Source: Yoonia tamlensis (GTDB lineage Bacteria; Pseudomonadota; Alphaproteobacteria; Rhodobacterales; Rhodobacteraceae). From it: DNA of 64,000 nt. The notes below the pieces were generated by a model that ran no database searches, had not been told where the DNA came from, and was given only the letters and a program-made list of their open reading frames with translations. This document shows positions 4,240 through 25,300 of this stretch, piece after piece. Position 1 is the first letter of the stretch; every line of letters starts with the position of its first letter. Made by a program: the position numbers and the translations under genes. The DNA is taken from contig NZ_FOYP01000001.1 in NCBI RefSeq assembly GCF_900115105.1, positions 1,886,097-1,950,096 of the forward strand. The letters are read 5' to 3'.

Positions 4240-4240
4240 C

Positions 4241-5658: not shown

Positions 5659-5684
5659 GTCTTACGTCCTTTTGTAACGGAGCG

Positions 5685-7571
5685 TTATGTGGCGATTTCC
5701 CATGCAACCGTATAGGCACCCAACGCTTTCTCGATCACTTTTTCGTCCACATCGGCGGGTTTTGCAATACGCGCAACCAGCCCACGTTTTTTGTGTTCAA
5801 CGACAGCAACAACGGTCGCGCCTGTATCTGCCAGCTCTGTGTTGTAAATGCGGGCAATCGCTTTCTTGCGCAGGTCGGGCTTAAAGATCTTGCCGACCGC
5901 AGTTTTTGGCAACTCGTCAAGGATTTCCAGATATTTCGGATAGGCTGCACGTTCGTGGATATGCTCCTTGGCAAAGGCGATCAGTTCTTCGGGAGTAATT
6001 TCAGCGCCCGCAACCAGTTCAACATAGGCGCAAGGGATTTCGCCCGCATGCGCATCCGGCTGGCCGATCGCACCTGCAAAGGCAACGGCGGGATGACCGG
6101 CAAGCGCCTCTTCGATCTCGGCGGGATCGATATTATGCCCGCCGCGAATGATCAGATCTTTGGCGCGTCCTGTGATCCACAAATAGCCGTCAGGGTCAAA
6201 GCGTCCCAAATCACCGGTGCGCAGATATTGGGTTTGCGACTTGTCGCCGGGGTAATACAGATCCTCGTTTTTGTCGGCTTCGGTATAGGTTGCGCCCATG
6301 GACACACCTGGGTTCGAGACGCAAATTTCACCGATTTCATCAACGCCGACGGCCTCGCCGGTCGCGACAGACATGATTTTGACGTCTGTATAGGGGAACG
6401 GAATCCCGATCGAACCGACACGTTTTTCACCTTCTGGCGGGTTGATCGAAACCAGACAGGTGGCCTCGGTCAGGCCGTAGCCTTCGCAAATCGTGACGCC
6501 TGCGGCCGCTTCGAACCGTTTGTATAGCTCAAGCGGCAGCGGCGCAGAGCCGCAAAATGCCAGCCGCAATGTCGAAATATCGGCATTCACGGGCCGTTGC
6601 ATCAGCGCCGACATCGCCGTTGGCACGGTGATCATAAAGGTGACTTTGTGCTTTTCGATCAGCTTCCAGAAGTTGTCAAACACGCCGTCACCACGATAGC
6701 CTTGCGGTGTCGGGAATACCACTTCGGCGCCCGACCCCAATGATGCCCCCAAGGACACAATCGTCGCAAATACGTGAAACAGCGGCAGCGGGCAGATTTG
6801 CACGTCTTTTTCAGTAAACAACAGCCGCGCGCCCAGCCAAGCGTTGTAGACAATCCCTGAATAGCGGTGTTGCACGACCTTTGGCATCCCTGTGGTGCCG
6901 CCGGTGTGGAAATAGGCCGCAACACGGTCGCCAGCACTATCCGCAAAGGCAAGCGTGCGGGGCTGTTTTGCCATTTCTTTGTTAAAATCCAGCACCTGTG
7001 CGTCGTGATTGGTCGGGTTCTTGGGCCGGATCAGCGGCACAATAAATTTCTTTACGCCTGTCAGATAGCGCAGCAAATCCACCTCGAGAACGGTTTTGAC
7101 ATTCGGTGCAAACCGGACCGCCTCGGCGGCCTTTTGCGCAACGTCGGTCTTTGGAAACGCCTTGAGCGTCACAAGCACCTTGGCGTTGGTTTCGCGCAGA
7201 ATGGCCGAAATCTGTTCGGCTTCCAGCAAGGGGTTGATCGGGTTGACGATACCGGCGACCTGCCCGCCCAGATAGGTCAGGATGGTCTCAGTCGCGTTGG
7301 GCAGCAAAAACGCGACGACATCATTTTCGCCCACACCCAACGACCGGAACAGGTTTGCAACCTGCGCGGTTTGCGCGCGCAGTTCATTCCAGGACAAGGT
7401 TTCGCATTTTGCCGCGGGATCAGACAGCAAGCTATAGCTTACCGCGTTGCGCTCTCCGAATTTGTCAGCGGTCTGGCTTAGCAGCGCAAAGGTGGTCTTG
7501 GGCAAATCGCGTGCGTCCCAAGGCATTTCATTCTGAATCGCATTGCGATCCTCTATCGTAGCATAAGCCAT
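5685..7571 (-). CDS. Acyl-CoA synthetase (AMP-forming)
   Basis: ATP-dependent ligase that activates a carboxylic acid to its CoA thioester through an acyl-adenylate. The 628-residue product has the adenylation P-loop HTGGTTGMPK (222-231), the EGYGLTEAT motif, the RTGDLGRFD hinge and the C-terminal GRAKDLIIRGGHNI motif; a Lys in the A10 position (AVGKIFKPDLR) is present. The start is supported by a strong GGGGAGGAG ribosome-binding site. A C-terminal extension of about 70 residues beyond the A10 Lys is longer than in medium-chain synthetases. The substrate cannot be read from sequence; neighbouring genes only suggest a fatty or branched-chain acid. Confidence 0.93.
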   Translation of the reverse strand: MAYATIEDRNAIQNEMPWDARDLPKTTFALLSQTADKFGERNAVSYSLLSDPAAKCETLSWNELRAQTAQVANLFRSLGVGENDVVAFLLPNATETILTYLGGQVAGIVNPINPLLEAEQISAILRETNAKVLVTLKAFPKTDVAQKAAEAVRFAPNVKTVLEVDLLRYLTGVKKFIVPLIRPKNPTNHDAQVLDFNKEMAKQPRTLAFADSAGDRVAAYFHTGGTTGMPKVVQHRYSGIVYNAWLGARLLFTEKDVQICPLPLFHVFATIVSLGASLGSGAEVVFPTPQGYRGDGVFDNFWKLIEKHKVTFMITVPTAMSALMQRPVNADISTLRLAFCGSAPLPLELYKRFEAAAGVTICEGYGLTEATCLVSINPPEGEKRVGSIGIPFPYTDVKIMSVATGEAVGVDEIGEICVSNPGVSMGATYTEADKNEDLYYPGDKSQTQYLRTGDLGRFDPDGYLWITGRAKDLIIRGGHNIDPAEIEEALAGHPAVAFAGAIGQPDAHAGEIPCAYVELVAGAEITPEELIAFAKEHIHERAAYPKYLEILDELPKTAVGKIFKPDLRKKAIARIYNTELADTGATVVAVVEHKKRGLVARIAKPADVDEKVIEKALGAYTVAWEIAT

Positions 7572-7687
7572 GCCGTTTCTCCTCCCCTGTGAGTGACGCT
7601 GCCATGCTTTTTACGGCAGTCGCATCTGAACGCCAGCGTGAGCAAATCTACAGCATTGCGCAAGTCTGACGCTACGCAATTTCGTGA

Positions 7688-9478
7688 TTATTCCGCAGTT
7701 TGCCCTTCGGTGAATTGCAGCTTGGCCAGCCGCGCATAAAGCCCGCCTTGCGCGACAAGGCTGTCATGCGTGCCTTGGGCGACGATCCGGCCCTCTTCGA
7801 ACACGACAATCCGGTCGGCTTTTTTGACGGTGGCCAGACGGTGCGCCACGATCAATGTCGTGCGGGTCTTGGCCAGCTCTTCCACCGCAACCTGCACCGC
7901 ATGTTCGCTTTCGGCGTCCAGTGCGCTCGTTGCCTCGTCCAAAAGCAGGATCGGCGCGTCGCGCAAAATGGCGCGCGCAATAGCGATCCGCTGCTTTTGC
8001 CCCCCAGAAAGCATCACCCCGCGTTCGCCGACATAGCTGTCATAGCCATCCGGCAGCGCAGTCAGGAAATCATGCGCAGCGGCGGCTTTGGCGGCTTGTG
8101 TAACCTCTTCGTCGGTGGCGGTAGGGCGGCCAAAGCGAATATTTTCGCGGGCGGTATCGGCAAAGATAACAGGGTCTTGCGGCACAAGCGCGATGTGCTG
8201 GCGAAACGCTGCGCGTTCCATATCACGCAGATCCTGCCCGTCGATACGCACAGCACCCTCCTGCGGGTCATAGAACCGCTGCACCATATGGATCATCGTG
8301 CTTTTGCCCGCGCCGGACGGTCCGACAAGCGCCACGGTTTCACCAGGTTTGATATCAAGATCAATGCCATGCAGCGCCGGAATATCCGCGCGCGACGGGT
8401 AGCTAAAGTGTACATTATCAAACACCAGCCCGCCTTTGACGGGCGTCACCACAGCATCGGGTTCGGCAGGGTCTTGCACCGTGTCCTGAATGGTTAGCAA
8501 TTCGACTAAGCGTTCTGTTGCCCCTGCCGCGCGCTGGAGTTCCCCCCAGACTTCGGACAGGGCCGCAACCGCGCCGCCGACCATGATCGTGTAGATCATG
8601 AATTGCACCAATCCGCCTTCGGTTGTTTCGCCCGTGCGCACATCTTGCGAACCCATCCGCAAAAACAGCACAATCGCGGAAAACACCATAAAAATAACCA
8701 ATGCCGTCAACATCGCGCGGGTGAAAATCCGCCGACGGGCCGAACGGTAACTTTGCTCTGTTACGTCATCGAACTTGGCGCGGCTGCGGTCCTCGTGGGT
8801 AAAGGCCTGCACGGTTTGCGCCGCAAGCAATTGTTCGGATGCACCGCCGCTGGATTCCGCGATCAGGTCCTGGTTTTCCTTGGATTGGCTACGCACCCGC
8901 CGGCCAAGAATGACCATCGGTATCAAAACAACCGGAATCGGCCACAGGACCATGACGCTCATCTTGACGGATGTCAGCATCATCAGCACCACACCCCCAA
9001 GGAAAATCAACACGTTACGCAGCGCGATTGAAGCAGAACTACCAACCACCGACAGGATCAGTGTCGTATCGGTGGTGATCCGGCTAAGCACCTCACCTGT
9101 CATGACGCGTTCATAAAATGCAGGGCTCATCCCGATCATCCGCGCAAAAACCGCCTTGCGAATATCGGCGACAATCCGTTCACCCAGCCGCGTGACAAGG
9201 AAATAGCGCAGCGCCGTCCCTACCGCCAAAAGTCCGGCAAAGGTCATCATTGTTTTGAAATGCTGCGCCAGCATCGTGCCGTCATCAGCGCCAAAATTGT
9301 CAACAATCAGCCGCGCTGCAATTGGCAAAACCAATGATATCGACGCCGTAAACACTAGCGCAAGCGCTGCTGCGATCACGTTCATGCGGTAAGGTTTCAA
9401 GAACGGCCATAACGCCCTGAGCGCACCCACCTTTTTGCCGGGTGTGCGATCTAAACCAATCTTCGGGGGTCGGGCCAT
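7688..9478 (-). CDS. ABC exporter, fused permease and ATPase (MsbA/LmrA type)
   Basis: Half-transporter of 596 residues that would work as a homodimer in the inner membrane. The first 320 residues hold the six-helix transmembrane domain; the ATPase has Walker A GPSGAGKST (386-394), LSGGQKQR (490-497), Walker B ILLLDEATSAL (510-520) and the H-loop His in IVAHRLATV. This layout is shared by lipid A flippase MsbA, multidrug exporters and BmrA-like proteins, and I cannot choose among them. The gene is monocistronic by spacing; the upstream ribosome-binding site is weak (GAG 7 bases before ATG). Confidence 0.93.
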   Translation of the reverse strand: MARPPKIGLDRTPGKKVGALRALWPFLKPYRMNVIAAALALVFTASISLVLPIAARLIVDNFGADDGTMLAQHFKTMMTFAGLLAVGTALRYFLVTRLGERIVADIRKAVFARMIGMSPAFYERVMTGEVLSRITTDTTLILSVVGSSASIALRNVLIFLGGVVLMMLTSVKMSVMVLWPIPVVLIPMVILGRRVRSQSKENQDLIAESSGGASEQLLAAQTVQAFTHEDRSRAKFDDVTEQSYRSARRRIFTRAMLTALVIFMVFSAIVLFLRMGSQDVRTGETTEGGLVQFMIYTIMVGGAVAALSEVWGELQRAAGATERLVELLTIQDTVQDPAEPDAVVTPVKGGLVFDNVHFSYPSRADIPALHGIDLDIKPGETVALVGPSGAGKSTMIHMVQRFYDPQEGAVRIDGQDLRDMERAAFRQHIALVPQDPVIFADTARENIRFGRPTATDEEVTQAAKAAAAHDFLTALPDGYDSYVGERGVMLSGGQKQRIAIARAILRDAPILLLDEATSALDAESEHAVQVAVEELAKTRTTLIVAHRLATVKKADRIVVFEEGRIVAQGTHDSLVAQGGLYARLAKLQFTEGQTAE

Positions 9479-9576
9479 TTGTGTCTCAATCTATTGCTTA
9501 GCGCAGACATAAAACCGCCCCGCCCAATTCACAAGGCGCAGCTACAATTAACCGTTATACAAATTGAAAGGGATTT

Positions 9577-9650
9577 TGGAGCGGGCGACGGGAATCGAAC
9601 CCGTGTCATCAGCTTGGAAGGCTGAGGTCTTACCATTACACAACGCCCGC
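9577..9650 (-). tRNA. tRNA-Gly (anticodon UCC)
   Basis: A 74-base cloverleaf with the 7-bp acceptor stem GCGGGCG/CGCCCGC, a D arm containing GTAATGGTAA-like loop bases, anticodon loop CTTCCAA giving UCC, and a T arm with GGTTCGATTCC. The discriminator T and the CCA end are encoded in the DNA (9577-9580 read on the minus strand). The sequence closely matches the well-known bacterial tRNA-Gly UCC pattern. It stands alone between the ABC exporter gene and the giant exported-protein gene. Confidence 0.97.
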
Positions 9651-9725
9651 GCTCGGGCTTTCAATATGCGAGCCCATTTGGATGGTCAAGCGTCCAGCGA
9701 CCACTTTGGCGCGCAAATCGGTCAA

Positions 9726-12700
9726 CTATTGCCCCGTCTGGCGCGCGGCATCCGCCAAAGCGCGCGCAGCCTCTTGCGACATAACGGGCGCATAGGGCTG
9801 ACCGGGGGTGATCGTGCCTTGCAAATGCAATGTGGCATAGAAATCTTCGCCACGGCTGGCCGCCGCATTTTCAAGATCGCGTAGATGCGCCAGATCAGCA
9901 GGCGTCGCCGCGCCGCGCTGCACCCTGTCGGCAAGCTGCGCAAAATCGGCCGTGGCTTGGGGCGGCAAGACGGTATAGCCTTGGCGTGTCAGCGCTTCGG
10001 TCTCAAGCGCTGCAATCGCGCGCAACTGGTCATCAAACGTGGCATCGGGCCCTGTGACCAGCGTCTCTAATATATCTTCGGGCACCCCTGCCCCGCGTGC
10101 ATTGGCCACGGCTGTCACCATCGTGCGCGCGGCATTGGCCCGCGTCACAACCGCCCGCGCATTCACAAAGGCATCGCTGCGATGCGTTGGCACCGCGTCA
10201 TTGGCCAGACGGTTTGCAATATCGGAACGCGCTGCGGCATCCGCACGGGCGGCTGCGGTTTCGAGTTCCGCCAGCCGGTTGTCGACCACGGGCGAAGGCG
10301 CGGACGCGGGCGCGGGCGCGCGAGTCAGCGGGCTGTTTGGCAGTGTGTTAAAGTCCAGATCGCCCACGCTCCAAGGCGCGCTGTCGGATGCAGGTGTTGT
10401 CGGCGGCGGCGCGAACCCCGCGTCGGCAACAGGCCCAGTGGCGCGTGCAGGGCTGGCGGGCGGCGCAAAGGCAAGATTATCAAAACCATCCGCAAATTCC
10501 GCCACATCATCCAGCAAAGCGCCTTCATCCACCATGCCGCGCAGGCTTGCGATGGCATCAGGGGTCATCGCGGGCTGGAAACCATCGGCGGTGGAATAGC
10601 GGCCCGTGCGGGCCAGATCGTCAAAATAATTGCCACCGCGCGCCGCCGCATCATCAATGCTGGCACGCAGCGCGATCAGATCACCGGGTTCGGGCTGTCC
10701 GGCCAAAACCCGCGTCATGCGGCCTTGCAAGGCGTTGCCATCTGCGGCCGATTGCAAGAAGTGGCCGGATCGGGTCAACAGTTCGCGCTGCGCATTGCCG
10801 ACAGGGCCTAGCCAGCGGCTGATATTATCCGGCCCCGCAATACCCAAACCGCCGACCAGATCCATGATTTCCGCCTCGCTCGCGCCAAGCCCGCGCAGCT
10901 GGTCAACCGCCGATTCCAGCGCCTCTTGATGCGCCATGCCTTGGCGCGCGTCCAAAACAGGCTGCAAGGTTTCGGCCAGATCTTCAGGGGCAAGCTGCGC
11001 GTAATCACCGCGTTGCCATGCTGTAACGATGCCCTGCACACGGGCCTCCTCGGCTTCAAGCATCTGGCGGCGGCTGGCGACCAGATCGGCGGGATTATCG
11101 AACCCGGCTACAGGTGTCGGCGCGGTATCCGCCGCGGCCCCCGGCTGGATCACGGTTTCGTCCAGCCCGGGCGTGGCATTGCCCGGCCCCGGCTGGATCA
11201 TGGTTTCATCCAGCGCGCCACCCGCGTCAGCATCCCCCGCCGCGCGGTAAATGGATTGGTCCTCGACCCCGCGCATGGATTCCAGATTTAGCCCACCCAG
11301 ACGGCCGACCTCATCAGGCATCGGGATCGGCGTCAGCCCGCCTTCGGGGATGGTCAGCTGCCGTTCAAGCCGCAGCGCATCATAAAGCGATCCATAGGTG
11401 CCGCGCAGGTTTTCGCGCAGTGCGGAAACGGCTGATACCGGCCCGTCTTCGCCCGCAATGCGTGCAAATGCGCTGGCGTCATCAAGCTTGGCCGCGCCTT
11501 CACGGCCCATTTGCCGCAAAAAGTGGAACTCCTCCATCCATGCGCGCATTTCGCCGTGGCCCATCCGATGCGCAAATTCGTGAATAAAGGTCGCCGCCAT
11601 ATCATCAAGCGTGCGCACACGGGACGCCCCGCCCGTGATCGCATCATGCCGAAAGAACGGGTTGACGGCGATTTCATCAATCGGAATTTCGCGCCCGTCC
11701 GGCAGCACGCGTTTGGGCGCATAGCCCAGAAACGGGCTTTCGGCATCAAACCGCAGCCGCACGTTTCCGGCATCCAGATGCGCCAGAAATGCCTGTGCGG
11801 TCTGGTTGTCATTGGGCGGCGCGGCCGCGCGGCGGATGATATCAAGCACCCCGTCTTGCACCTCTTGTTGCAGCCCCGGGTTATTGCGCCAAAGCGCGAC
11901 CTGTTCGGGTGTCGCAATCGGGCCGTTATCGGCGCGCCGCAGCGTGTTCATATAGCTGCTTTCAAGCCCCGCAAGATCGTCGATCTCGCGCCGCAAGGCC
12001 TGCACCATCGCGGCGCGTTCCGGGCCGATTTCGCCCCTGCGGATCGCGTCATAGACGCTGTCCCAATCGCCGCGGTGCGTGTCCCCAAAGACCAGATCGG
12101 TGGTCCGGTTCAGATCATCCGCCGACATATTCGGCGTGCGTGAAGTCATGAATTGCACCAAAGGATCATCCGCCATATCGGGCGGCACGCGGGTGCCGTC
12201 TTGCATCCGCACCCAGTCGTCGCCCACAGCCGCCCCATCCGCAGGGCGCGCATAGGCCGACACCGGCGGCAGATTTCCATCCGTGATATCAGGTAGCCGC
12301 GCTGGCGGCGGGTTTTGCGTCAAAAGCGGGATATCAGGCCCGAGGCTTGCCGGCGCTTCGGGCAAGTCAGGGATCGGATCGGGGCGCGTTGGCACAGTTT
12401 CAGCCGCATCCGCGCGCCGTGGCAGCGCAGGCCCTGTTTCGGGGCGCGGTGTTACGGGTGGGGCCGCGCCCGTGGATGGTGCGCCAATATCCAACCGGTC
12501 GAAATCATCCGCAGCCCCCGCAGGCGGCGCACCGCCATCGCCCGCCATGCGCCCTGGCGGCGGCAAATCATCCGCAGCACCAATCCCGTCGGCGGCACGA
12601 ATTTCGGCCTCAAGCGCGTCAAGCGCGGCCGCGCGCGCGGCGACAGGTGCGATTTCAGCGGCGCGCGGGTCGCCAAGGTTGCGGCTGATCACATCCTCGG

Positions 12701-15700
12701 GCACGCCGGCGCTGCGCGCATCGGCAACACGCCCGTCGATCGCATCTTGCAGACGCGCGGTCTCAAGCGCCTCATCCGCACGCAAGGCTTCTGCCGCATA
12801 CCCGCCATCGCGGGCCGTATCGGCGGCGCGCGCAACCTGACGGTCCGCAGAGCCGCGCAAGGCTTGCGTGCGCGCATCAACCTCGGGCGGTGCGGCTGTG
12901 CGGCGCGGCAGACCTTCGGAGGCGGCACGGACAGGCTCTGCATCCGCAATTTCCGCCGGGTCGCGGGTGGTCGGCGCATCAGCGCGCGGGGTTTCAGCGC
13001 CGGGGGTTTCAGGGCGCACATTTGTTGGCACATCTGTGTCAGGCGCGCGCGCATCAGGGCGCGGGGTTTCAGGCTGCACGCGCGCAGTCGTGCCCGCATC
13101 ATCCGCCGCACCCGCATTTTCAAGCCGGTTACTGATCCCTGTGTTTTCAGCGGGTGGGGCATCAGCAGCGGGGGTGCGCGTGCCTGCGGTGCCGCCCGCC
13201 TCGACCAGTTCGGCATCCAGCGCATCAAGATCATCAGCCCCGGATCGCGGTGGCGTAATTGCACGGCCAGCATCAGTAGGCGTCACATCCGGTGACACAT
13301 CGGCGGGCCGCGCGGCGCTGACATCTTCAGCGCTTGCAAGCCGCGCGACATCGCCCGTTTCGGCCGCCCCCCCCGCGCGGTTGGCGGCGGTTGCTTCGTC
13401 CAGCCAAGCCAGCGATCCGCGTTCCAGATCGGTCAGGCTATCCGCCCCGCCTTCGGCTGCGCGTTTTGCTTCGGCGCGCGACAGGAATGACAATAAATCG
13501 ACCTTCTCTGCCTCGCTCAGATTTGTGGCTGCCGTTCCGCTGCGCAACCGCGCGGCAACATCCGCGCCGCGCCGCGCCGAGAGCGCATCGCTTACCAGAC
13601 CCGCGCTGCGATACGCAGTAAAACCCGCCCCCACACCAGAACCAAGCACACCAAGCGCGGCCTCGTACCATGTCTTGGCTTCGGCGCTTTCCATATCCAG
13701 CCGTTCGGTGCCAATCACCGGCGATGCGCCGCGCGCGAATGTCACGTTGGATTGGTCTTGCAGGTATTCGGGAATTTCAGTGGCCAGCGTAAAGGCCAGA
13801 TCAGCCGTATCCACGCCGAGCGTGACAACCGCGCTTAGCACGCCTTCGCCCAGAATGGCGCCTGCGCCAACCGATACTGCCGCAATCGACAAGGCGATCA
13901 TCGTGTTATCAAGCGCTGCGTAATCCTCTTGGGCTTTGACGGCGGCGGCCAATGTGCCAAGGCTGCTTACCCAGCCGCGCGCGGCCAGATCGGGCTCCCA
14001 ATATTGGCGGTCGGGTTCGCGTTCTGTGCGCAGGCGTAACAGATCCGGCAACAGATCACGCGCCACCGCGTCAAAGCCAAACCCCGTCAGTTGCAACAAT
14101 TCTTGCGCATCGCAATCGCCCGCGGCATTGCCTTTGGCAATCGAGGTTTCCATATGCCCGATAAACACATCCAGCGCCGCGCGCGTCTGCGCCAATTGCC
14201 ATGCGGCAAATTGGTCTTGCGTCAGCGCCCAGCGGCGGCGCACCCAATCAGCATTATTCACCGCCGTAAAATCAAGCTTGCTGCCATCGGGGGCTGCAAT
14301 TTCAATACGGTTGATCGGCAGATTGCGATCAAACACCTGCCCCGACATCAGGCGGATGAAATTGCGCGTTTTATCCGTATCGGCCCGAATGGCGCGGTAT
14401 TCACCCAAAATGCGGGCCATCTTTTGGTTAAAGCGGTCGCGCAGCAAAATCATCGCCGCATGATCGCCAAAGGTCACGCGCAACGACCGCCGCGAAAACC
14501 ATTCCGAGAAATTGCGATCAAACACGATCCGGTTGGATATTTCGTCAGATTCCTGTGCCGCAATCCTGCGAAAATCGATTCCCGTCATATCGTGGCAGCG
14601 CGCCGCGCGTGCCAGCGCCTCTGTCCACAGCCCGTTGACTTCGGCGGGGCCGGAAATGACCGGCACGCGCAGCAATGCAGGCGTGGCGCGGATTTGATCG
14701 GGGTTGGCAAGCATAGCCTGGATCACTTGCCCCGCCTGCACAGGCAGCCCGATTTGCCCCGCAACAGGCGGCGGCGCGCGGTGCGCCTGCACCGGATGAT
14801 GCAGTGCAATCGCGGGGCTCAGGTAGGTGTTGCCGTCACCGCCGCTAACGCGGGTCAGGGTGATCAGGTTCGGATCACGTGGCGCGGCATCCGGATTGGC
14901 CGCCGTAGCGTCCGGCATTTCAAGCGTCACGGGCTGCCCGTCAACGCCCAGCCGCACGCCGATTGTTTCCATCGGCAACCGCCCCGCAAGCCTGACACGC
15001 ACAAAGGCGCGCTCCATCGGGGTGACACGCGCAGTGGGTTCAAATTCGTCCTCGCGGATTTCGCGCACAAACGCCAGCTCGCCCAGCGCATCGCCAAAGC
15101 CCAAGGTCCAGACCCCCGCTGCCCCGTTCATCTTAAGCAATGTTTCACCGGGCAAAACACCCGGCTCTAGGGTAGCCGTGACCAGAAATGCATCCTGCCC
15201 AGCCGCAGGCCGCGACCCGCGCCGTTCAAAGGCCCAGTCGAAATCATGGCGCAACACCCCGTTGCTCCCAACGTCCCTGTAATCCCCGCGCAACGCATAG
15301 CGGATCGGGTTGCCTTGCGCGTCGAAAACCACCCGATCATCGGCACCGCCACGCGGAAAATTCTGCCCAATGACCAAAAGTGTGCGCCTGTTATGCCCCA
15401 GATTGCGACCTTGCGCGTCAAACGGATAGGGGTAGGAAATACCGGCCTCGTCTTGGTGGAACTGGTCGGTGACAACAAAAATTTCTTCAATAATCGGGGT
15501 CTTGTTCCGCCAAAGCGCCGTGCCGCTGGCGCGCGGCTGGCCGGCATTGTCAAAGCTTTGCCAAAAGCCCTGCAAATCGCCCGTTTCCGTCTGGCCCAGC
15601 CGGATTTCAATGTCGCGCCCTTGTGCGGCATCAATGGTCGCGCTGGCCGTCGCCGCCGCATAGGTCAGCACCATCGTTCGCGCATTTGCGGGCACTTCGA

Positions 15701-16988
15701 ACACCTGTGCAGCGGCCGCACCCAGTTCCAGATTGCCCGCAACGCTGGCTTGGGCGGGCGGGTTTGGCGGTTCCGGCCATTCGCCGCGCAAGCGCAAGGT
15801 GAGCGCGCCCGCATCCATGCGCAGGGATACGGCCTGCGTGGCGTAGCTGCGGTCAAAATCTTCAAGCGCAAGCGTGACCGCGCCATTTGCATCAATCTGC
15901 ACAGGGCCGCCAAATTTGATACGCGCCGGATCGGGGTGCTGGTGTTCGGCCTCCCACGGGCCGGCAAGCTGGGTCAAAAGCCCTGCAAGTTCCGGTGCAA
16001 CCTCTGGCCCGGGCAATGCCGCGCCCTGCCCGGGCGCGAGCCTGATCGGCCCCGAACGATAAAGCCGCGCGGTGATTTTGGTCAGCACCACGCCGGTTGG
16101 CGCGGCCCCTTCGGGGGTTAGCAGCACGGTGATTTGGTTTTCGGGCGGGGCGGTTTCAAACTGCGCCTCAATCACATAGGGCCTGCCATAGGTCAGCGGC
16201 ATCGGCGCTTGCCGCCAGCGCCAGCGTCCATTTTCCGCAGGGCCGGATTGCGCCGCCACACGCAGCTGCGCGCCACCACCAGGCAGGGCCACAGTGACCA
16301 TCAAGGGCTGCGCCAGCCTGAAGGTTGTCAACACCGCGAACGGGGCCACCACGGGAATCTGCACAATCAGGGTTTCACGCAGCTGCGCGGCCTCGGTTTC
16401 GGTTAACATGCGGCTAAACCCGATCAGCCGCAGATGCGCAATCTGGCTGTCGCGGCGCAAAGCGGCCGCGGTTGCGGCTGGCACTTCGGCCCCGATATCA
16501 AGCCTGCGCGCACCAACCGCAAGCGTCAGCCGGTAACCACCGTTTTCGGCTTGCAGCAACGGGCGCACCATAATCTCGGCGCGCGCGGCGGTCGGCAACT
16601 GGCTGCGTGCGCCCGTGGTGCCTGTGCCACCCCCGCCCACGCCGGCATTTTCCATCGCGGCAGCAACGCAGCCCAATTCGCCAACAATCGACCCGCCCGC
16701 ACAATTCTGGGCTTGTGCGCCGTCACCAGTTCCGTCGCCGCTTTGGTCTGCGCGCGCCCCTTGAAACACCAGCCGCGCCGCGACCGGCCGACCCAAACCA
16801 GCCGAAGGCGCGTCAGGCAGGGCGTCGATAAAATCAGCCGCCGCTGCGCTCGCGTCCTGCACGGCCCGCGCGGTATTCGCGATTGCATCGTCCAGATCAT
16901 CAAAAACGTCATCTTGGGCCGCAACTGGCAAAATCCAGACCCAAAGCAGCAGCATCAGCCCTGCGGTATGTGCGAAAATGCGGCTCAT
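9726..16988 (-). CDS. Giant exported protein of unknown function with an HExxH motif and C-terminal repeats
   Basis: 2420 residues, not recognised as a whole. Residues 1-24 form a clean signal peptide (basic start, hydrophobic LMLLLWVWI, cleavage near VAAQD). Residues about 120-800 look like several beta-rich domains; about 1025-1080 contain a hydrophobic Ala/Gly/Val stretch that could cross or insert in a membrane; about 1130-1600 are Ala/Pro/Asp-rich and probably disordered. A zinc-protease-like motif HEFAHRMGH lies at 1803-1811 inside a conserved-looking segment (about 1590-1880). Near 1920-1950 DETxIQPG occurs twice. The C terminus holds degenerate repeats (about 2030-2150 and 2298-2412). 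Its ATG overlaps the stop of the beta-helix gene by 4 bases, so the two are translated together. The strand is supported by unbroken reading over 7.2 kb. A surface protease, adhesin or toxin-like protein are all possible. Confidence 0.88.
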   Translation of the reverse strand: MSRIFAHTAGLMLLLWVWILPVAAQDDVFDDLDDAIANTARAVQDASAAAADFIDALPDAPSAGLGRPVAARLVFQGARADQSGDGTGDGAQAQNCAGGSIVGELGCVAAAMENAGVGGGGTGTTGARSQLPTAARAEIMVRPLLQAENGGYRLTLAVGARRLDIGAEVPAATAAALRRDSQIAHLRLIGFSRMLTETEAAQLRETLIVQIPVVAPFAVLTTFRLAQPLMVTVALPGGGAQLRVAAQSGPAENGRWRWRQAPMPLTYGRPYVIEAQFETAPPENQITVLLTPEGAAPTGVVLTKITARLYRSGPIRLAPGQGAALPGPEVAPELAGLLTQLAGPWEAEHQHPDPARIKFGGPVQIDANGAVTLALEDFDRSYATQAVSLRMDAGALTLRLRGEWPEPPNPPAQASVAGNLELGAAAAQVFEVPANARTMVLTYAAATASATIDAAQGRDIEIRLGQTETGDLQGFWQSFDNAGQPRASGTALWRNKTPIIEEIFVVTDQFHQDEAGISYPYPFDAQGRNLGHNRRTLLVIGQNFPRGGADDRVVFDAQGNPIRYALRGDYRDVGSNGVLRHDFDWAFERRGSRPAAGQDAFLVTATLEPGVLPGETLLKMNGAAGVWTLGFGDALGELAFVREIREDEFEPTARVTPMERAFVRVRLAGRLPMETIGVRLGVDGQPVTLEMPDATAANPDAAPRDPNLITLTRVSGGDGNTYLSPAIALHHPVQAHRAPPPVAGQIGLPVQAGQVIQAMLANPDQIRATPALLRVPVISGPAEVNGLWTEALARAARCHDMTGIDFRRIAAQESDEISNRIVFDRNFSEWFSRRSLRVTFGDHAAMILLRDRFNQKMARILGEYRAIRADTDKTRNFIRLMSGQVFDRNLPINRIEIAAPDGSKLDFTAVNNADWVRRRWALTQDQFAAWQLAQTRAALDVFIGHMETSIAKGNAAGDCDAQELLQLTGFGFDAVARDLLPDLLRLRTEREPDRQYWEPDLAARGWVSSLGTLAAAVKAQEDYAALDNTMIALSIAAVSVGAGAILGEGVLSAVVTLGVDTADLAFTLATEIPEYLQDQSNVTFARGASPVIGTERLDMESAEAKTWYEAALGVLGSGVGAGFTAYRSAGLVSDALSARRGADVAARLRSGTAATNLSEAEKVDLLSFLSRAEAKRAAEGGADSLTDLERGSLAWLDEATAANRAGGAAETGDVARLASAEDVSAARPADVSPDVTPTDAGRAITPPRSGADDLDALDAELVEAGGTAGTRTPAADAPPAENTGISNRLENAGAADDAGTTARVQPETPRPDARAPDTDVPTNVRPETPGAETPRADAPTTRDPAEIADAEPVRAASEGLPRRTAAPPEVDARTQALRGSADRQVARAADTARDGGYAAEALRADEALETARLQDAIDGRVADARSAGVPEDVISRNLGDPRAAEIAPVAARAAALDALEAEIRAADGIGAADDLPPPGRMAGDGGAPPAGAADDFDRLDIGAPSTGAAPPVTPRPETGPALPRRADAAETVPTRPDPIPDLPEAPASLGPDIPLLTQNPPPARLPDITDGNLPPVSAYARPADGAAVGDDWVRMQDGTRVPPDMADDPLVQFMTSRTPNMSADDLNRTTDLVFGDTHRGDWDSVYDAIRRGEIGPERAAMVQALRREIDDLAGLESSYMNTLRRADNGPIATPEQVALWRNNPGLQQEVQDGVLDIIRRAAAPPNDNQTAQAFLAHLDAGNVRLRFDAESPFLGYAPKRVLPDGREIPIDEIAVNPFFRHDAITGGASRVRTLDDMAATFIHEFAHRMGHGEMRAWMEEFHFLRQMGREGAAKLDDASAFARIAGEDGPVSAVSALRENLRGTYGSLYDALRLERQLTIPEGGLTPIPMPDEVGRLGGLNLESMRGVEDQSIYRAAGDADAGGALDETMIQPGPGNATPGLDETVIQPGAAADTAPTPVAGFDNPADLVASRRQMLEAEEARVQGIVTAWQRGDYAQLAPEDLAETLQPVLDARQGMAHQEALESAVDQLRGLGASEAEIMDLVGGLGIAGPDNISRWLGPVGNAQRELLTRSGHFLQSAADGNALQGRMTRVLAGQPEPGDLIALRASIDDAAARGGNYFDDLARTGRYSTADGFQPAMTPDAIASLRGMVDEGALLDDVAEFADGFDNLAFAPPASPARATGPVADAGFAPPPTTPASDSAPWSVGDLDFNTLPNSPLTRAPAPASAPSPVVDNRLAELETAAARADAAARSDIANRLANDAVPTHRSDAFVNARAVVTRANAARTMVTAVANARGAGVPEDILETLVTGPDATFDDQLRAIAALETEALTRQGYTVLPPQATADFAQLADRVQRGAATPADLAHLRDLENAAASRGEDFYATLHLQGTITPGQPYAPVMSQEAARALADAARQTGQ

Positions 16989-19900
16989 GGCAGCACCCCG
17001 ACGCCAAGCGCCTGCCCCAAACGGTAGGCCAATGTGCCAAAGGCGCAGTCTTGCAGCACCGGCTGCGCATCGGTTTGGGCTTCAAGCGCCGCAAACAGGG
17101 ACACATGACAGGGGCTTGGTGCATTGGGGTCATCTGCATCCTCAAGCCCTGACGGCACGCCCAGATCAAATTCCGGCGCGAAATACAGCAATGTCGCATC
17201 GGGTGGTGGTGGCACTGCGGCTCCGGCGGCGCGCGAAAGCCTGCGTTCCAGCATATAGCTGACCGCCGCATGCGCGCCCGGATCACCCGCCTGCAAATCC
17301 ACCAGAACACCATCGGCCGATCCCGCAAGCGCACGCGTCACAGCCGCCCACCAGCGTGCATTTGCATCCTGCGCGGCGATTTGCCCGAAAGCCGCCGCAG
17401 CCGTCGCATAATCCGATAGCACATATGCCACATCAGCCCTTTGCCGCCAAAGCCCGGCATCCTGCGGATATTGCCCGACGGCCACCGCCAAAAGCGCATC
17501 AGCCGCAGCGATCCGGTCGTGATCGAGATACATATTCACCGCCACACGCGTTACGCGCGCGGGGTCGCCGATCATATCGCCAATGGCCAGTATCTGTGTT
17601 GCGGCCGCATCGATCTGGCCGGTTGCGGCCAGCGCGCGTCCCAAAGCCAATCGCGTACGCGGGTTATCAGGCGCGGCATCATATGCGGCGCGCGCCTGCG
17701 AAAGGCGGGCCTGCGCCATGCGCAAGCGCGCAGCGTCCTGACCGTAACCGATTGGCATGACCAGTTGTTGCTGCGTGCCAAAGGCATCCAGCAACACATG
17801 CAGCACCAGCCCGTCTATTCCGACCACATTATCCGGCAGCGCGGCTTGCAGCACAAAGGGCCGTGACCCGGGTGGTGGGCTATCGATCAGCGCAATGCGC
17901 TGCCCTGCGTGTGTCAGGTAAACATCCGCAACCAAGGGCCGCGCGCCGTCGCGCATCAGATGTGCCAAACGCAAGGGAGAGTTTTCAATCATCGTGGCAA
18001 GGCTTGCCTCGCGGTGGCGCGCCCAGTCGAATGTCAGCGCGATCCGCAGATCACCTTCGATCAGTCCGGCCTGCGCATGCAAACGGCCGATCAATGCCCC
18101 TTGCGGCGCGTCCGATGGGCGGCGCAACGAAAAGTGACACCAGTCGGCGGCGCAATAATCGGGGGCATAGGTTTCGGCCGCAACAACCAATGCAGGCGCT
18201 ACCACCGTCGTTTCCGAGGCGATAACCCCTTCAAGCGCTTGCGCCAGAGCATCCACACCCGCATGGCGCGCCACCCCGAACCTGCTGTCGTCACCGCTTG
18301 CAAAATCGGTCAAAGCTTGGGGTTGCGCCCAGTCCCTGCGCATCCAGGCGGCATAGGTGATATAATTTTCAAACGGTGCAAACAGCGATTTTGCGGCAAA
18401 TGCGTTTGGCCGGCATTCGGCGATATGCCCGTTAAACAGGTAACTGCCAAATAGCGCGCTCCGCTGCGCCCCAAGGTTCGTGATCTCGAGCAGCGCCGCA
18501 TTGGTTTGATACTGCGTGGCCAAAGCAGCCTCGAACGCGCGCGCCTCGGGTTCGGGCAACCGGTCAAGCACGGGGCAGAACATGCGGATCTGGTTGGTTT
18601 GAAACAACGGGCCGTCAGGGCGGGCCGCGCCGATCAGATTGGCCACCAATGCTTCACGCCCGGCAATCAGCGGCAGGATTTCACGCAGCATATGTTCCGC
18701 TTGCGGCACGGAAAAGGCGGCGGCCAATGTCTCTGGATCATCCGACCGCCCGATCAGCGCGATTGCGGCGCTGCGTGCAGCCCAGACTGTCGGATCATTG
18801 CGCAGCGCCTGTGCATCCGCCCCTTGGGCGCGCAATTGTGCGGCGCTTTCATGATGCGCGGCGATAATTTCACGCAAATACCCGTGGCTTTGCGGCAAAT
18901 CGCCGGCAGGCACATAGGACAGCCCCGCCATCGCAAGCCCCCATGTCTGCGGATCGGCCAGCCCTTGCAAAATCACATCATCCGCCGCAGGCATCCCGTA
19001 TTGGCGCAGCAGTTGCGCCGCGTGCTGGCGCAGATCCGGATCATCGCGCAGTGCCATGACCGCGCCGTCTTGCAAGCGGCCCAGACGTATCTCGATTGCA
19101 ATCGCCCGATGCAGCGCGCTGTACGGGCCCCGGCCATCCTGCGCAGCCAGCCGCGCGGCCGCAATCGCGGCAGCGACATCGCTTTGGTCACCGTAGGCGA
19201 TGATCAGCCGTTCGGCCGCATCGGCACTGCGCCGCACCCTTTGATAGGTCGCATTCAACGCGGCAAACCCGCCAGGAAACTGGTCGGGCGTCGCATATTG
19301 CGCGCCAAGCGCAACAACACGCGCGTCCAATCCGGCATAGGCCGCGCGTGCCTGCGCCAATGCGGCCTGCGTTGCACCCGAAGGTGCAAGCACCGCCGCC
19401 GGAAGCTGCCGGCTAGCGGGTGGCGCCCAGCGCGCTTGGCGCTCTGCAAGTGGCAAAAGCGTGACGGGAATGTCGGTAAGTACATATTGCCCCGCAGCAT
19501 TCGACCATTGCTCGAGCTTCAAAAGCGCCGTGGTCGGCAACATGATTTCGACGCTTTTGGCACCCGATCGGGTGATGTCGACGACTTGCGGATCATGCGC
19601 GCCCTGATCTGCCGCAACGACATAGGTGCCCAAGGGCAATCGTAGCTCAGCGCCACCCGATTGCAGCGTAGAAATGCCCGCCCCGACGATCCGGTTATCC
19701 AGATCATAAACCGTGTAGCCGACCGCTATGTCCTGACCGAAACGATCCTTGACCGTCACCTGCAGCGCGCCCATCGCATCCACCTGCGCGCGTGCATCCG
19801 CGTCAAGCTCCGCAAGGGCTGCGCGCGCTGCAATAACACCAGACCAATCGCCGGAAATTGCCGCATCCACAGCCGGTGTCAGCGCTGCCAGCACTGCATC

Positions 19901-21385
19901 CACCGCGCCCCGATCAAGCGGCACCTGCCCAAGCGCGCGGGTCGTGCCATCGGTTGCAATATCCATTTCGGCATAGATCGCCCCGCCGCTGTGTGCCGGT
20001 GCCGCGCCCGCCCAGATATCGGCCTGCGCATGGTGCCCTGCCGCCGCTGATTGCAAGATCACCAACGCGTCAGCCGTTGCCAGCCCCATGCTGCGCGTCG
20101 ATTGCAAAACTGCCGCGTGCTGCACATAGACCGCAGTTTCGCCTTGCGCGGCAAACAGATTGTTCGCGAACGCGGTTTCGGTGCCGTTCTCGAACAAAAG
20201 CGCAAGCCCGTTGGCCGCCAGAAACGCGTTTGCGGATATATCCACCGGCCCTGTCATCCCCCCATAAAGCGCTTGCCCCGCGCGCGCCGCAACCGCGTTA
20301 TCGTGCAATTCAACCCCCTGCGACTGGCCGCTCAGAACGACGCCCGACCGCCCGCCAACGATGCGATTGGCGCGCACTTGGCCCGTTACAGGCCCCTCGA
20401 TTGCCAACCCGTTACTATCGCCAAATGCGCGCAAGACATTGTTTTCAATATGCAATCGGCCCACGATATTGCGCAGATCCACGGCGCCCGACAGGCCAAG
20501 CAACGCACTGTCGGTCACGGCAACAGGGCCAGTATCTTGGATGATCAGCGCGGTATCATTGACCGCCGCGATATCGGCGCGTTGCATGCGCAGGCTGCCT
20601 GCCTGTAACGCCAGAACCCCCGTGCCCGTAACATTGCGCATCTGCACATCCGAGGCGGCAAGCTGCGCATTTTCTTGCACCAGAATACCATGGCCTGCGG
20701 CCCCATCAATTGTGACCTGCGCCAGCTGCAACTGCGCGCCCTGCGCCGCAAAAAGCGCACCCGCCCCGATTTCCGCGACATCCACCTGCTGCAGTTGCGC
20801 GCGCGCAGGCCCTTGAATGGCAAGCGCTTGGGCCGCAAAGCCTGCTATGCGGCAGTTTGTGATTTCGATGCTTGATGCGTCAAACGCCAGAATTCCCTGC
20901 GCCGCCCCGCGCGTCAGGACCGCACTGTCAACGCCCAGCCTACCGCCCGCCAGATAGACCGCAGGCCCCGTGGAATCGGTGATCGTGACATGGCGCATTT
21001 GGGCCTGCCCGCCCTGAACATAAACCCCCATGCCAACTTGCGGCTGCGGTGTGATTGTCAGGTTTTCAAGCGTCACCTGACCGGTTTCGTCAACCGTCAC
21101 AACCATTTCCGCCTCTGCGCTGCCTGTCAGAACGGTGCTGCCATCGGGCGCGCCAAGAATGGTCAGGTCTTTGGCATAGGCGACAATGATCCCCGGATAG
21201 GGGCCAGGGCCAAGCTGGATCGTCGCACCGGATTGCGCGGCTTGGGTAATTCCTGTCAGATCCGTACCCGCCGGTACCGGCTGCGCATGGGCCACACCGC
21301 CAAAAATGCACAACGCGCATATGATCAGCACGCCTGCCGGGCTTTGGCAAAAACACTGCCACAATGATCGCAAACAAGCGGGCAT
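16985..21385 (-). CDS. Exported right-handed beta-helix protein with C-terminal TPR-like region
   Basis: 1466 residues, no known function. A signal peptide covers about residues 1-34 (ending in VAHAQ). Residues about 40-460 repeat a pattern of roughly 22-25 residues with short beta strands and phrases such as VTLENLTITPQP, MRHVTITDSTGPAVYL and IEITNCRIAG, the mark of a right-handed parallel beta-helix (PbH1/NosD-like). About 545-640 resembles a transthyretin-like or carboxypeptidase-regulatory beta sandwich (LPLGTYVVAADQG). About 700-1050 is helical and may be HEAT-like. About 1330-1440 shows TPR-like helices (ARLSQARAAYDAAPDNPRTRLALGRAL is the clearest part, within limits). No catalytic residues of pectin lyases could be identified. 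It is the first gene of a coupled pair with the giant downstream protein. Confidence 0.88.
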   Translation of the reverse strand: MPACLRSLWQCFCQSPAGVLIICALCIFGGVAHAQPVPAGTDLTGITQAAQSGATIQLGPGPYPGIIVAYAKDLTILGAPDGSTVLTGSAEAEMVVTVDETGQVTLENLTITPQPQVGMGVYVQGGQAQMRHVTITDSTGPAVYLAGGRLGVDSAVLTRGAAQGILAFDASSIEITNCRIAGFAAQALAIQGPARAQLQQVDVAEIGAGALFAAQGAQLQLAQVTIDGAAGHGILVQENAQLAASDVQMRNVTGTGVLALQAGSLRMQRADIAAVNDTALIIQDTGPVAVTDSALLGLSGAVDLRNIVGRLHIENNVLRAFGDSNGLAIEGPVTGQVRANRIVGGRSGVVLSGQSQGVELHDNAVAARAGQALYGGMTGPVDISANAFLAANGLALLFENGTETAFANNLFAAQGETAVYVQHAAVLQSTRSMGLATADALVILQSAAAGHHAQADIWAGAAPAHSGGAIYAEMDIATDGTTRALGQVPLDRGAVDAVLAALTPAVDAAISGDWSGVIAARAALAELDADARAQVDAMGALQVTVKDRFGQDIAVGYTVYDLDNRIVGAGISTLQSGGAELRLPLGTYVVAADQGAHDPQVVDITRSGAKSVEIMLPTTALLKLEQWSNAAGQYVLTDIPVTLLPLAERQARWAPPASRQLPAAVLAPSGATQAALAQARAAYAGLDARVVALGAQYATPDQFPGGFAALNATYQRVRRSADAAERLIIAYGDQSDVAAAIAAARLAAQDGRGPYSALHRAIAIEIRLGRLQDGAVMALRDDPDLRQHAAQLLRQYGMPAADDVILQGLADPQTWGLAMAGLSYVPAGDLPQSHGYLREIIAAHHESAAQLRAQGADAQALRNDPTVWAARSAAIALIGRSDDPETLAAAFSVPQAEHMLREILPLIAGREALVANLIGAARPDGPLFQTNQIRMFCPVLDRLPEPEARAFEAALATQYQTNAALLEITNLGAQRSALFGSYLFNGHIAECRPNAFAAKSLFAPFENYITYAAWMRRDWAQPQALTDFASGDDSRFGVARHAGVDALAQALEGVIASETTVVAPALVVAAETYAPDYCAADWCHFSLRRPSDAPQGALIGRLHAQAGLIEGDLRIALTFDWARHREASLATMIENSPLRLAHLMRDGARPLVADVYLTHAGQRIALIDSPPPGSRPFVLQAALPDNVVGIDGLVLHVLLDAFGTQQQLVMPIGYGQDAARLRMAQARLSQARAAYDAAPDNPRTRLALGRALAATGQIDAAATQILAIGDMIGDPARVTRVAVNMYLDHDRIAAADALLAVAVGQYPQDAGLWRQRADVAYVLSDYATAAAAFGQIAAQDANARWWAAVTRALAGSADGVLVDLQAGDPGAHAAVSYMLERRLSRAAGAAVPPPPDATLLYFAPEFDLGVPSGLEDADDPNAPSPCHVSLFAALEAQTDAQPVLQDCAFGTLAYRLGQALGVGVLP

Positions 21386-21478: not shown

Positions 21479-22024
21479 CTAGCCCGCGCTTTTCCATTCT
21501 TCAGGGCTGACATAGATGATCTTGTCGTCAACGCTGACCATCACTTCGCTATCTTGGATATTGACCTGCAACTTCATCGAACGGTTGGCAAGCTGACCCA
21601 ACGCGGTGGTGTCTTGCTCTGAAATGTTGATGACGCGCAGATTGTCAAAACGGGTGGTCTTGTTCTGGGTCTTGTCCCACCACATCTGCGCGGTCCTGCC
21701 GCCATAGCAATAGACAACTACCGCCTTGGCCTTGCCGCACGACTGCCGGATGATCTTCTCGCTTGGTTGGCCCAGCGCGACCCAAAGCTCTAACTCGCCG
21801 CTCAGGCTTTTTTGCCAAATATCAGGCTCGTCATCTGTCGAAATGCCTTTGGTCATTTCCAGCTGCTCATGAGCATTCAAAGCAAAGGCCAAAAGCCGCA
21901 GCATCAGCCGCTCTTCGGTTTCAGACGGGTGCTTGGCCACAGTCAGATTGTGGGTCTCGTAATAGTTGCGATCCATATCGGCGACGGAAAGCTCGGCTTT
22001 GTAGATCGTGGATTTTTGCGCCAT
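21479..22024 (-). CDS. yaeQ: YaeQ family protein
   Basis: 181 residues matching the YaeQ family from end to end: ATIYKAEL-type start (STIYKAELSVADMDRNYY), AKHPSETEERLMLRLLAFAL and KGISTDDEPDIW are its hallmark segments. The family has a PD-(D/E)xK nuclease-like fold; YaeQ was linked to suppression of RfaH-dependent haemolysin defects, but its biochemical role is unknown. It is a single-domain cytoplasmic protein. It lies 93 bases upstream of the beta-helix gene on the same strand, so read-through into that operon is possible but unproven. The length is normal. Confidence 0.93.
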   Translation of the reverse strand: MAQKSTIYKAELSVADMDRNYYETHNLTVAKHPSETEERLMLRLLAFALNAHEQLEMTKGISTDDEPDIWQKSLSGELELWVALGQPSEKIIRQSCGKAKAVVVYCYGGRTAQMWWDKTQNKTTRFDNLRVINISEQDTTALGQLANRSMKLQVNIQDSEVMVSVDDKIIYVSPEEWKSAG

Positions 22025-23757: not shown

Positions 23758-23918
23758 TGTTTCAGTCCCCATGTTGGAATGGTCGCAGCTTGCCGCTGGC
23801 CCAGTGCAGAGTCAAATATCTTCGCCATCATGCCCGCTTGCCCCCACGTTAGGAAAACGAATATTCCGGCGCCGATCAGGTGCTTGACCAATTTGTGTGC
23901 AACCTGCATGACAAAACC

Positions 23919-24251
23919 ATGAAAATTTACAAGATATTCCGCGCCGATGAATGGGCCGAACTGCAAGCCAATGGTGAAACCCGTGGCGCGCCGATTGATA
24001 TTTCTGACGGCTATATCCATTTTTCAACGGCGCAAACCGTCGCCGAAACCGCCGCCAAGTATTTTGCGGGCATCGACGGGCTTGTGCTGCTGGCGCTTGA
24101 GGCCGACAGTCTCGACCCGCTGAAATGGGAGCCCGCCCGCGCAGGTGTTCTGTTCCCGCATCTTTACCGCAATCTGCGCATGGATGACATTCTTTGGGAT
24201 GCACCATTGCCGCTGGTTGATGGCATCCACCAATTTCCGGATCTGACATGA
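23919..24251 (+). CDS. DUF952 domain protein
   Basis: 110 residues spanning one DUF952 domain: [17 protein letters not shown] at the start, then [20 protein letters not shown] and a C-terminal [13 protein letters not shown] are typical. The fold resembles ADP-ribosyltransferase-like/KptA-related proteins, but no function is established. ATG 23919 was chosen over an upstream in-frame ATG because the domain begins right there. It shares an ATGA overlap with pyrD and is the promoter-proximal gene of that pair, a linkage common in alphaproteobacteria. Confidence 0.9.
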
Positions 24252-25300
24252 AACTGCTTGAAACCATCGGGCTAAAGGCCTTTTCGAAAATTGATTCCGA
24301 AACAGCACACGGTCTGGCGCTCAGGGCGTTGAACACAGGGCTTGGCCCGCGTGGCGGGCCGTTTGCGACGGATCGTTTGCGCACCCAGATCGCGGGGCTT
24401 GATCTGCCGAACCCTGTGGGGCTTGCCGCCGGTTTCGACAAAAACGCAACTGCACTGGCAGCGCTCGGGCGTACGGGATTCGGGTTTCTAGAGGTCGGCG
24501 CCGCCACACCCCGCCCACAACCCGGCAACCCTAAACCCCGCCTGTTTCGTCTGACCGAAGACCGCGCCGCGATTAACCGTTTCGGGTTTAATAATGACGG
24601 GATGGAAACGATTGGCGCGCGCCTGTCTGCGCGGCCCGCAGGGCGCATTGTCGGGCTGAACCTTGGCGCAAACAAAGATAGCACAGATCGCGCCGCAGAT
24701 TTCGCAACCGTTTTGGCCCATTGCGGCCCGCATGTGGATTTTGCCACCGTCAATGTGTCGTCCCCCAACACCGAAAAACTGCGCGACCTGCAAGGCAAGG
24801 CCGCACTCGCCGCCCTGCTTGCAGGTGTGATGGATGCCCGCGCGGGGCTGGAAGCCCAAATCCCCGTCTTTCTGAAAATCGCACCCGATCTGACGGGCGA
24901 TGAGCTGTCCGAGATTGCCGAGGTCGCCAATACATCCGGCATTTCCGGCATCATCGCGACCAACACGACGCTGGACCGTATCGGGCTACACGGACCCCAT
25001 GCCGCTGAAAAAGGCGGGCTTTCGGGCCAGCCATTGTTTGAAAAATCCACGCGTACGCTGGCGCAACTGTCGGGGTTGACCGATCTGCCAATTATCGGCG
25101 TGGGCGGGGTTGGGTCCGCGGACCAAGCTTACCAGAAAATCCGCGCAGGCGCGTCGGCGGTGCAGCTCTATACGGCGCTGGTCTATGGTGGTGTTTCTTT
25201 GGTCGATGAAATCACGCGCGGGCTTGACGCATTGCTGGCGCGCGACGGGTTTGCGAACGTTGCAGACGCTGTTGGATCAGGGCGCGGCGACTGGCTCTGA
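24248..25300 (+). CDS. pyrD: Dihydroorotate dehydrogenase (quinone), class 2
   Basis: Membrane-associated FMN enzyme of de novo pyrimidine synthesis, oxidising dihydroorotate to orotate with quinone. The 350-residue product has the N-terminal extension of class 2 enzymes (residues 1-45, quinone access helices), [22 protein letters not shown], the [15 protein letters not shown] segment with the catalytic Ser, NTTLDR and the FMN phosphate-binding [15 protein letters not shown] motif. It starts on an ATGA overlap with the DUF952 gene and its last 24 bases overlap the convergent MATE gene. Confidence 0.97.

Follow-up and report, generated by a model that had tools for sequence, protein, structure and literature searches.

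Among described systems, those closest to the locus analysed here are the polymorphic toxins of the Sec/type II secretion system (T2SS) class, for which one review describes kinase and several zincin-like toxin domains and gives it as a rule that an immunity gene adjoins the toxin gene (PMC3482391). The locus is a pair of overlapping genes, here called A and B, in a stretch of 64,000 nucleotides from Yoonia tamlensis (Rhodobacterales; contig NZ_FOYP01000001.1, positions 1,886,097 to 1,950,096 of the forward strand), hereafter the window. The pair resembles these toxins in its signal-peptide-like starts, in its modularity and in what may be different enzyme parts behind a common front; it differs from them in that no adjoining immunity gene is seen, no known pre-toxin domain is found, and a gene for a beta-helix partner lies directly in front with a 4-base overlap. 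As a whole, the pair is best explained as a two-gene exported cassette in which A would be a scaffold or binding partner and B would carry, as effector, an enzyme part open to exchange, a reading that we hold tentatively and to which we give somewhat less than an even chance.

The comparison with toxins can be taken further with the relatives of the pair in other genomes. As to toxin position, a kinase-like domain is terminal in the four relatives whose B is complete, and the HExxH motif of the window B lies at residue 1803 of 2420, with two repeats after it. As to a front shared by variable toxins, the enzyme part is kinase-like in all four of these relatives and carries HExxH in the window, the window front being tied to theirs by one motif. 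The effector kinases NleH and OspG offer a second comparison, since a profile of the relatives' domain, in which G-x-G-x-T, D....N and D-x-G are kept, weakly matches NleH1 and OspG (E 0.32 and 0.99, not significant). That domain, however, ends a protein of 1320-1578 amino acids (aa) with a signal-peptide-like start, and it is absent from the window B. Right-handed beta-helix proteins such as NosD match A over about residues 40-430, although A, at 24.9 bits, stays well below the cut-off of 300 for the NosD subfamily model (NCBIfam TIGR04247) and its other two thirds have no NosD match. In contact-dependent inhibition (CdiA/CdiB), CdiA is likewise a giant exported modular protein with a beta-helix. 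In the A/B pair, by contrast, beta-helix and enzyme sit in separate proteins, neither A nor B has a two-partner-secretion or haemagglutinin-type Pfam match, and none of the 10 neighbours, the only other genes of the genome in which CdiB was sought, gave a CdiB-like match.

A search of the literature by titles and abstract openings returned no description of the pair among the matches listed. The initial annotation had proposed an undescribed cell-envelope system acting in one complex; undescribed holds within the libraries and literature searched, which gave neither a Pfam or NCBIfam name nor a paper. Both proteins look exported; a cell-envelope system and a single complex are conjectural.

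The gene pair, protein A and their relatives

The two open reading frames (ORFs), of 4.4 and 7.3 kb, lie where they were first placed, with bases 16985-16988 (ATGA) common to both, and together take up 11,660 of the 64,000 bases of the window (18%); the genome measures 3.19 Mb in 7 contigs. The pair and the parts of A are laid out as follows.

16985..21385, minus strand: gene A, 1466 aa, with a signal-peptide-like start, beta-helix, HEAT-like region and TPR-like C-terminus
9726..16988, minus strand: gene B, 2420 aa, apparently exported, of no known family
16985..16988, minus strand: 4-base overlap of A and B (ATGA), from the ORF coordinates
21284..21385, minus strand: signal-peptide-like N-terminus of A, about residues 1-34 (hydrophobic stretch and A-x-A site)
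20096..21268, minus strand: right-handed beta-helix of A, about residues 40-430 (Pfam Beta_helix and NosD)
18977..19249, minus strand: HEAT/alphaRep-like helical region of A, about residues 713-803 (A-family profile against the PDB; approximate mapping)
17330..17716, minus strand: TPR-like repeats of A, residues 1224-1352 (Pfam, below the curated cut-off)

Five relatives of the pair were found, in three named Rhodobacterales genera and two metagenome-assembled genomes (MAGs): Sediminimonas qiaohouensis (L039), an uncultured Aliiroseovarius (L040), a Rhodobacter MAG (L041), a Pseudomonadota MAG (L042) and Cognatishimia (L043). This number is a lower bound, because the profile search with the B front, which confirmed 5 of 105 candidate stretches in genome contigs, used just two peptide patterns. 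The B of L042 ends at the contig end, so that four of the relatives' B proteins are complete. The coupling first noticed in the window is borne out by these homologues, which stand together in 6/6 loci, with A directly before B and a 4-base overlap in each; the B start codon that overlaps the A stop is ATG, or GTG in L041. Starts were chosen where a signal-peptide-like sequence follows, and some loci have longer reading frames. Among these hits there was no full-length A without B and no confirmed B without A. Nor does B fall into a known family with an unrelated role, since no Pfam cut-off was reached by the window B or by the relatives' B that were scanned, three in number.

The identities of A and of B rise and fall together (Spearman 0.90 over the 10 pairs of the five relatives, which are not independent), and the relatives' B fronts are 23-50% identical over their first 430 residues (5 loci). 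By sequence, the window A is a clear relative of the other A proteins, aligning over 1084 residues with a profile of four of them (hhalign probability 99.8, E 2.9e-29). Signal peptides had been claimed for both window proteins, and in each a hydrophobic N-terminal stretch does lead up to a site of the A-x-A type, as judged by a simple rule and not a dedicated predictor. Across the six loci the hydrophobic N-terminus is present in every B, and the A-x-A site in 4/6 B and 6/6 A (the A start of L042 is not resolved).

Full-length A is sporadic in the genus, family, order and class genome sets, which overlap and were not merged. As a single query, A matched 2 of 56 genus genomes, namely its own and one with a TPR stretch, and at this sensitivity the full A is absent from 55/55 other genus genomes. 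The same query matched 8 of 394 family genomes, full-length in 3, and of the genomes matched G408 and G373 carry pairs. A profile of three A proteins matched 14 of 390 order genomes (full-length in G000, G408, G676 and G679). With a profile of six, matches came from 38 of 394 family genomes, 3 of them holding the full length, and from 21 of 327 class genomes, where the window's own genome was the sole full-length case. Partial matches, mostly to part of the beta-helix and in a few cases to the TPR stretch, were dropped by match range; among those dropped, L013-L017 were compared by blastp, L037 and L038 by their ORFs, and L037 also by Pfam. At L037 936-7235 there are two adjoining trypsin-like proteins, one with TPR and peptidoglycan-binding matches and the other with a long beta-helix; apart from the beta-helix they are unrelated to A.

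Within A, the beta-helix is placed by Pfam (Beta_helix, E 1.4e-15). The helical and TPR-like repeats reported behind it fared unequally: a HEAT-like helical stretch is supported by the A-family profile, which matched designed HEAT-like alphaRep chains in the PDB (best E 8e-4), and the TPR assignment is weak (TPR_19, E 4.8e-4, 20.8 bits against a cut-off of 25), residues 1224-1352 having no counterpart in the aligned A proteins of the five relatives. Neither A nor B has a PDB sequence match at E<=1. A gave no match in the plasmid search, a single-sequence scan of genome contigs with it confirmed 0 of 44 stretches, and its PHROGs matches were unconvincing (E 0.0016 over 25 residues; a tail spike, E 0.28). 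A foreign origin by composition is unsupported, as the third-position guanine-plus-cytosine fractions of A (0.654) and B (0.67) lie inside the range of 13 other window genes (0.574-0.727). Promoter and terminator scans gave fewer sites than were found in shuffles.

Protein B and the kinase-like end of its relatives

The whole of the window B has no Pfam or NCBIfam match at E<=5. Its recognisable parts are listed here in order from the N-terminus.

16917..16988, minus strand: signal-peptide-like N-terminus, residues 1-24 (hydrophobic stretch and A-x-A site)
16647..16703, minus strand: CxGGxxVGxLxCVxxxxEN motif, residues 96-114, common to the relatives' B by profile
13812..13907, minus strand: hydrophobic block, residues 1028-1059, from the sequence
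12249..13421, minus strand: low-complexity linker, about residues 1190-1580, by composition only
11568..11582, minus strand: HExxH, residues 1803-1807, putative zincin-like site (motif, without a family match)
10542..11012, minus strand: C-terminal repeat unit 1, residues 1993-2149 (score against shuffles)
9756..10229, minus strand: C-terminal repeat unit 2, residues 2254-2411 (score against shuffles)

A kinase-like C-terminal domain is found in 4/4 relatives with a complete B, where G-x-G-x-T, D....N and D-x-G are invariant and the kinase catalytic positions are kept down to 21% identity. Leave-one-out profiles recover the held-out domain at 15.7, 44.8, 148.5 and 155.8 bits, the best shuffle reaching 4.8. 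A profile search of the PDB returned 29 sequences under E 1, all of them protein kinases (best E 0.15), mostly TTK with NleH1, OspG, RSK and CaMKII also present; this likeness to protein kinases is non-significant and may be called suggestive. When viral contigs were scanned with the kinase-like domain of one relative as a single sequence, 0 of 12 candidates were confirmed. The window B lacks the domain, its profile scores being no better than those of shuffles (hhalign probability 0.2), and conversely HExxH occurs in 0/5 relatives' B (four complete, one cut). In the place of the window's HExxH region the relatives thus have a kinase-like domain, which suggests an effector-like role more than a purely structural one.

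In the window protein, the HExxH noticed at first is indeed single, at residue 1803, against 0.014 expected from composition, and Glu residues occur within the 20 residues after it. Its region gave 3 matches in 374 family genomes: its own, G199 (E 3.8e-4, with three in-frame stops) and G121 (E 0.0068). The hydrophobic block is likewise present at residues 1028-1059, and the C-terminal repeats prove to be two homologous units of ~160 aa, whose score of 106 exceeds the highest seen in 500 shuffles (61). For the beta-rich domains there is a weak hint from FlgD_ig within residues 1-963 (E 0.11; its 13 bits fall short of the cut-off, 27). The residues P, A, T, D, E, G, S, R and Q make up 79-89% of about residues 1200-1600 and 57-75% of most other hundreds. 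B has no match in plasmids, and none in viral contigs by single-sequence scan.

Short repeats are seen on both sides of the comparison: the window B has two DETxIQPG units, and Thr-containing tandem repeats precede the kinase-like domain in the B linker of L039 and L041, with eight TR[IV]EPG units in L039. Named matches in the relatives' B were judged unconvincing, namely Pfam TetR_C_12 in Aliiroseovarius (E 0.013, below the cut-off), PADLOC Cas8g in Cognatishimia (E 6.2e-6, over 88 residues of a coiled-coil-like part), and a cyclase (E 0.015) and PHROGs (E 0.0079) in Sediminimonas. Plasmid homologues of a relative's B were rejected, the 4 records matching solely in Thr/Pro repeats.

The insertion site and neighbouring genes

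Two genes outside the cassette border the site at which the pair lies.

9577..9650, minus strand: tRNA-Gly(tcc), one border of the insertion site
21479..22024, minus strand: yaeQ, the other border (neighbour scan)

The tRNA-Gly gene starts 75 bases past B. The site was read in 5 of 54 other genomes, all among the closest, and A or B was present in 0/5 of these stretches. In the sister G040, whose ABC transporter is 95% identical, the site is empty, with ~95 bases from yaeQ to tRNA-Gly and the same flanking gene order. The sister G025 has one small ORF between the two borders (L116 9831-10499), which we take to be similar to a hexapeptide acetyltransferase, and in G004 and G012 the 5'-nucleotidase gene adjoins tRNA-Gly and no yaeQ was found. 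The sister G016 carries two giant ORFs of 2187 and 1192 aa, in a stretch that stops short of yaeQ; by eye they resemble surface proteins rich in repeats, and they occupy the site that holds the pair in the window. Within that stretch (L117, G016:C31:168300-182000) the giant ORFs lie at 3559-13672, and partial tRNA-Gly-like copies are found at 2588-2936 beside the intact tRNA-Gly. Because the site is empty in a near sister species, the pair looks like a unit of gain or loss, and the site itself looks like a hotspot.

The other neighbours scanned are ordinary (5'-nucleotidase-like, YaeQ, MATE, thioesterases, an ABC transporter, AMP-binding and acyl-CoA enzymes). The ABC transporter adjoining the pair was matched in 55/55 genus genomes, in G035 at just 37% identity and thus perhaps not as a true counterpart. 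A 412-aa ORF between the 5'-nucleotidase-like and MATE genes (window 23812-25050) is present in 4/5 sister stretches read and has no Pfam or NCBIfam match.

Around the relatives' pairs, no ORF within 2.6 kb is common among the five at E<=1e-4 (blastp; L041 and L042 have little flank), and a wider comparison of the six loci (ORFs >=150 aa, E<=1e-10) found no third gene common to all. The KLAP22 MAG and Aliiroseovarius loci share two genes, presumably aminotransferase-like (78%) and peptidase-like (58%), upstream of A in one locus and downstream of B in the other. Genes of ABC transporters, a very large superfamily, lie near four of the six loci; those within a few kb of three relatives' pairs (L011 2476-5323, L012 6343-7500 and L036 2-2202) are presumably of the uptake type and, being common genes, may be there by chance. 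Upstream of the Cognatishimia pair are two ORFs (L043 4510-6037) that we take to resemble a BlaI-type repressor and an M56-type membrane protein.

The proposed cassette and its alternatives

In the two-gene exported cassette that we favour, A and B would be inherited, gained and lost as one unit, and both would exit the cytoplasm through Sec. A, a long beta-helix with an alpha-solenoid, would serve as a scaffold or binding partner that physically associates with B and presents, folds or anchors it. B would be a modular carrier whose front contains cysteines and whose middle is helical and hydrophobic, with a low-complexity linker and an enzyme part. The last would depend on the species, protein-kinase-like in the relatives and a putative zincin-like HExxH domain in the window, a difference that would have arisen through domain exchange and not through long divergence of the whole protein. 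The enzyme part would be active in modifying or cutting proteins of a target, which most likely lies outside the producing cell and may be either a competitor or a eukaryotic host, for instance an alga. Behind the effector reading stand the conserved kinase positions, an enzyme part in the window unlike that of the relatives, and the sporadic distribution. As ATP is scarce in the periplasm and the kept catalytic motifs suggest its use, delivery into another cell is favoured.

Several observations weigh against the cassette. The link between the window B and the relatives' B consists of one motif of ~20 residues together with gene order and overlap; the CxGGxxVGxLxCV motif scores 21.1 bits, where the best of 200 shuffles reaches 6.7, and the comparison with the relatives' front reaches an hhalign probability of just 32 (E 4.8e-4). 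Membership of the window B in the same family is likely, and is not proven by sequence alone. The lone HExxH may be due to chance, as such a motif arises in 24 of 2000 shuffles of B; its region matched nothing among families, the PDB, plasmids or phages, and it lies 600 residues before the end of B, unlike a C-terminal toxin. The kinase-like domain for its part has no Pfam match at E<=10. A type II secretin scored over the cut-off in 0/5 pair carriers searched (the L041 genome was left out, and G373 is 88% complete) and in 2/3 pairless sisters; the second step that toxins exported by Sec usually take thus did not turn up in the carriers. Finally, no immunity gene adjoins B in the window, and no small downstream ORF is common to the 4 relatives with downstream sequence; a non-conserved immunity gene may be located elsewhere.

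The missing secretin and immunity gene would fit a pair with a structural or adhesive role at the cell surface. A and B would then be large proteins of the envelope that serve attachment or form a coat, and the B C-termini would be modules for binding or degenerate enzymes. Surface proteins often contain beta-helix, solenoid and low-complexity regions, and the giant surface-like ORFs of G016 occupy the same chromosomal site. We consider this explanation unlikely, though deserving of real weight, because kinase catalytic positions kept in all four complete relatives at such low identity are unexpected for a purely structural part. Another alternative is a periplasmic signalling or protein-quality pair, whose enzyme acts on envelope proteins of its own cell or on B; in the latter case the B repeats that contain Thr would be a substrate, as the TR[IV]EPG units before the L039 kinase-like domain and the DETxIQPG units of the window B might suggest. 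Such a pair would require ATP outside the cytoplasm, and the absence of full A from all 55 other genus genomes searched speaks against a housekeeping role, which leaves the periplasmic account improbable.

If the pair were a classical polymorphic toxin system aimed at other bacteria, with Sec export and then a further delivery step, a signal-peptide-like start followed by different enzyme parts would be accounted for. This reading accords poorly with the lack of an immunity gene next to B or of a shared small ORF downstream, with a window enzyme that is not at the extreme C-terminus, and with the absence of any pre-toxin Pfam domain, and we rate it as quite improbable. The cassette can also be put in a bolder form, as a secreted system of Rhodobacterales, so far undescribed and made up of two genes, whose dedicated beta-helix/solenoid protein A itself delivers the giant B across the outer membrane without a T2SS or known transporter and whose kinase and metalloprotease parts are exchanged; in that form it is a long shot.

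The cassette is compact, rare and testable, and the family of A and B is unnamed in the Pfam and NCBIfam libraries searched. If the cassette reading is true, the pair would represent a new architecture of modular exported effectors, in which one of two overlapping genes encodes the binding or delivery part and the other the enzyme carrier, and it would entail the export of an ATP-requiring enzyme.

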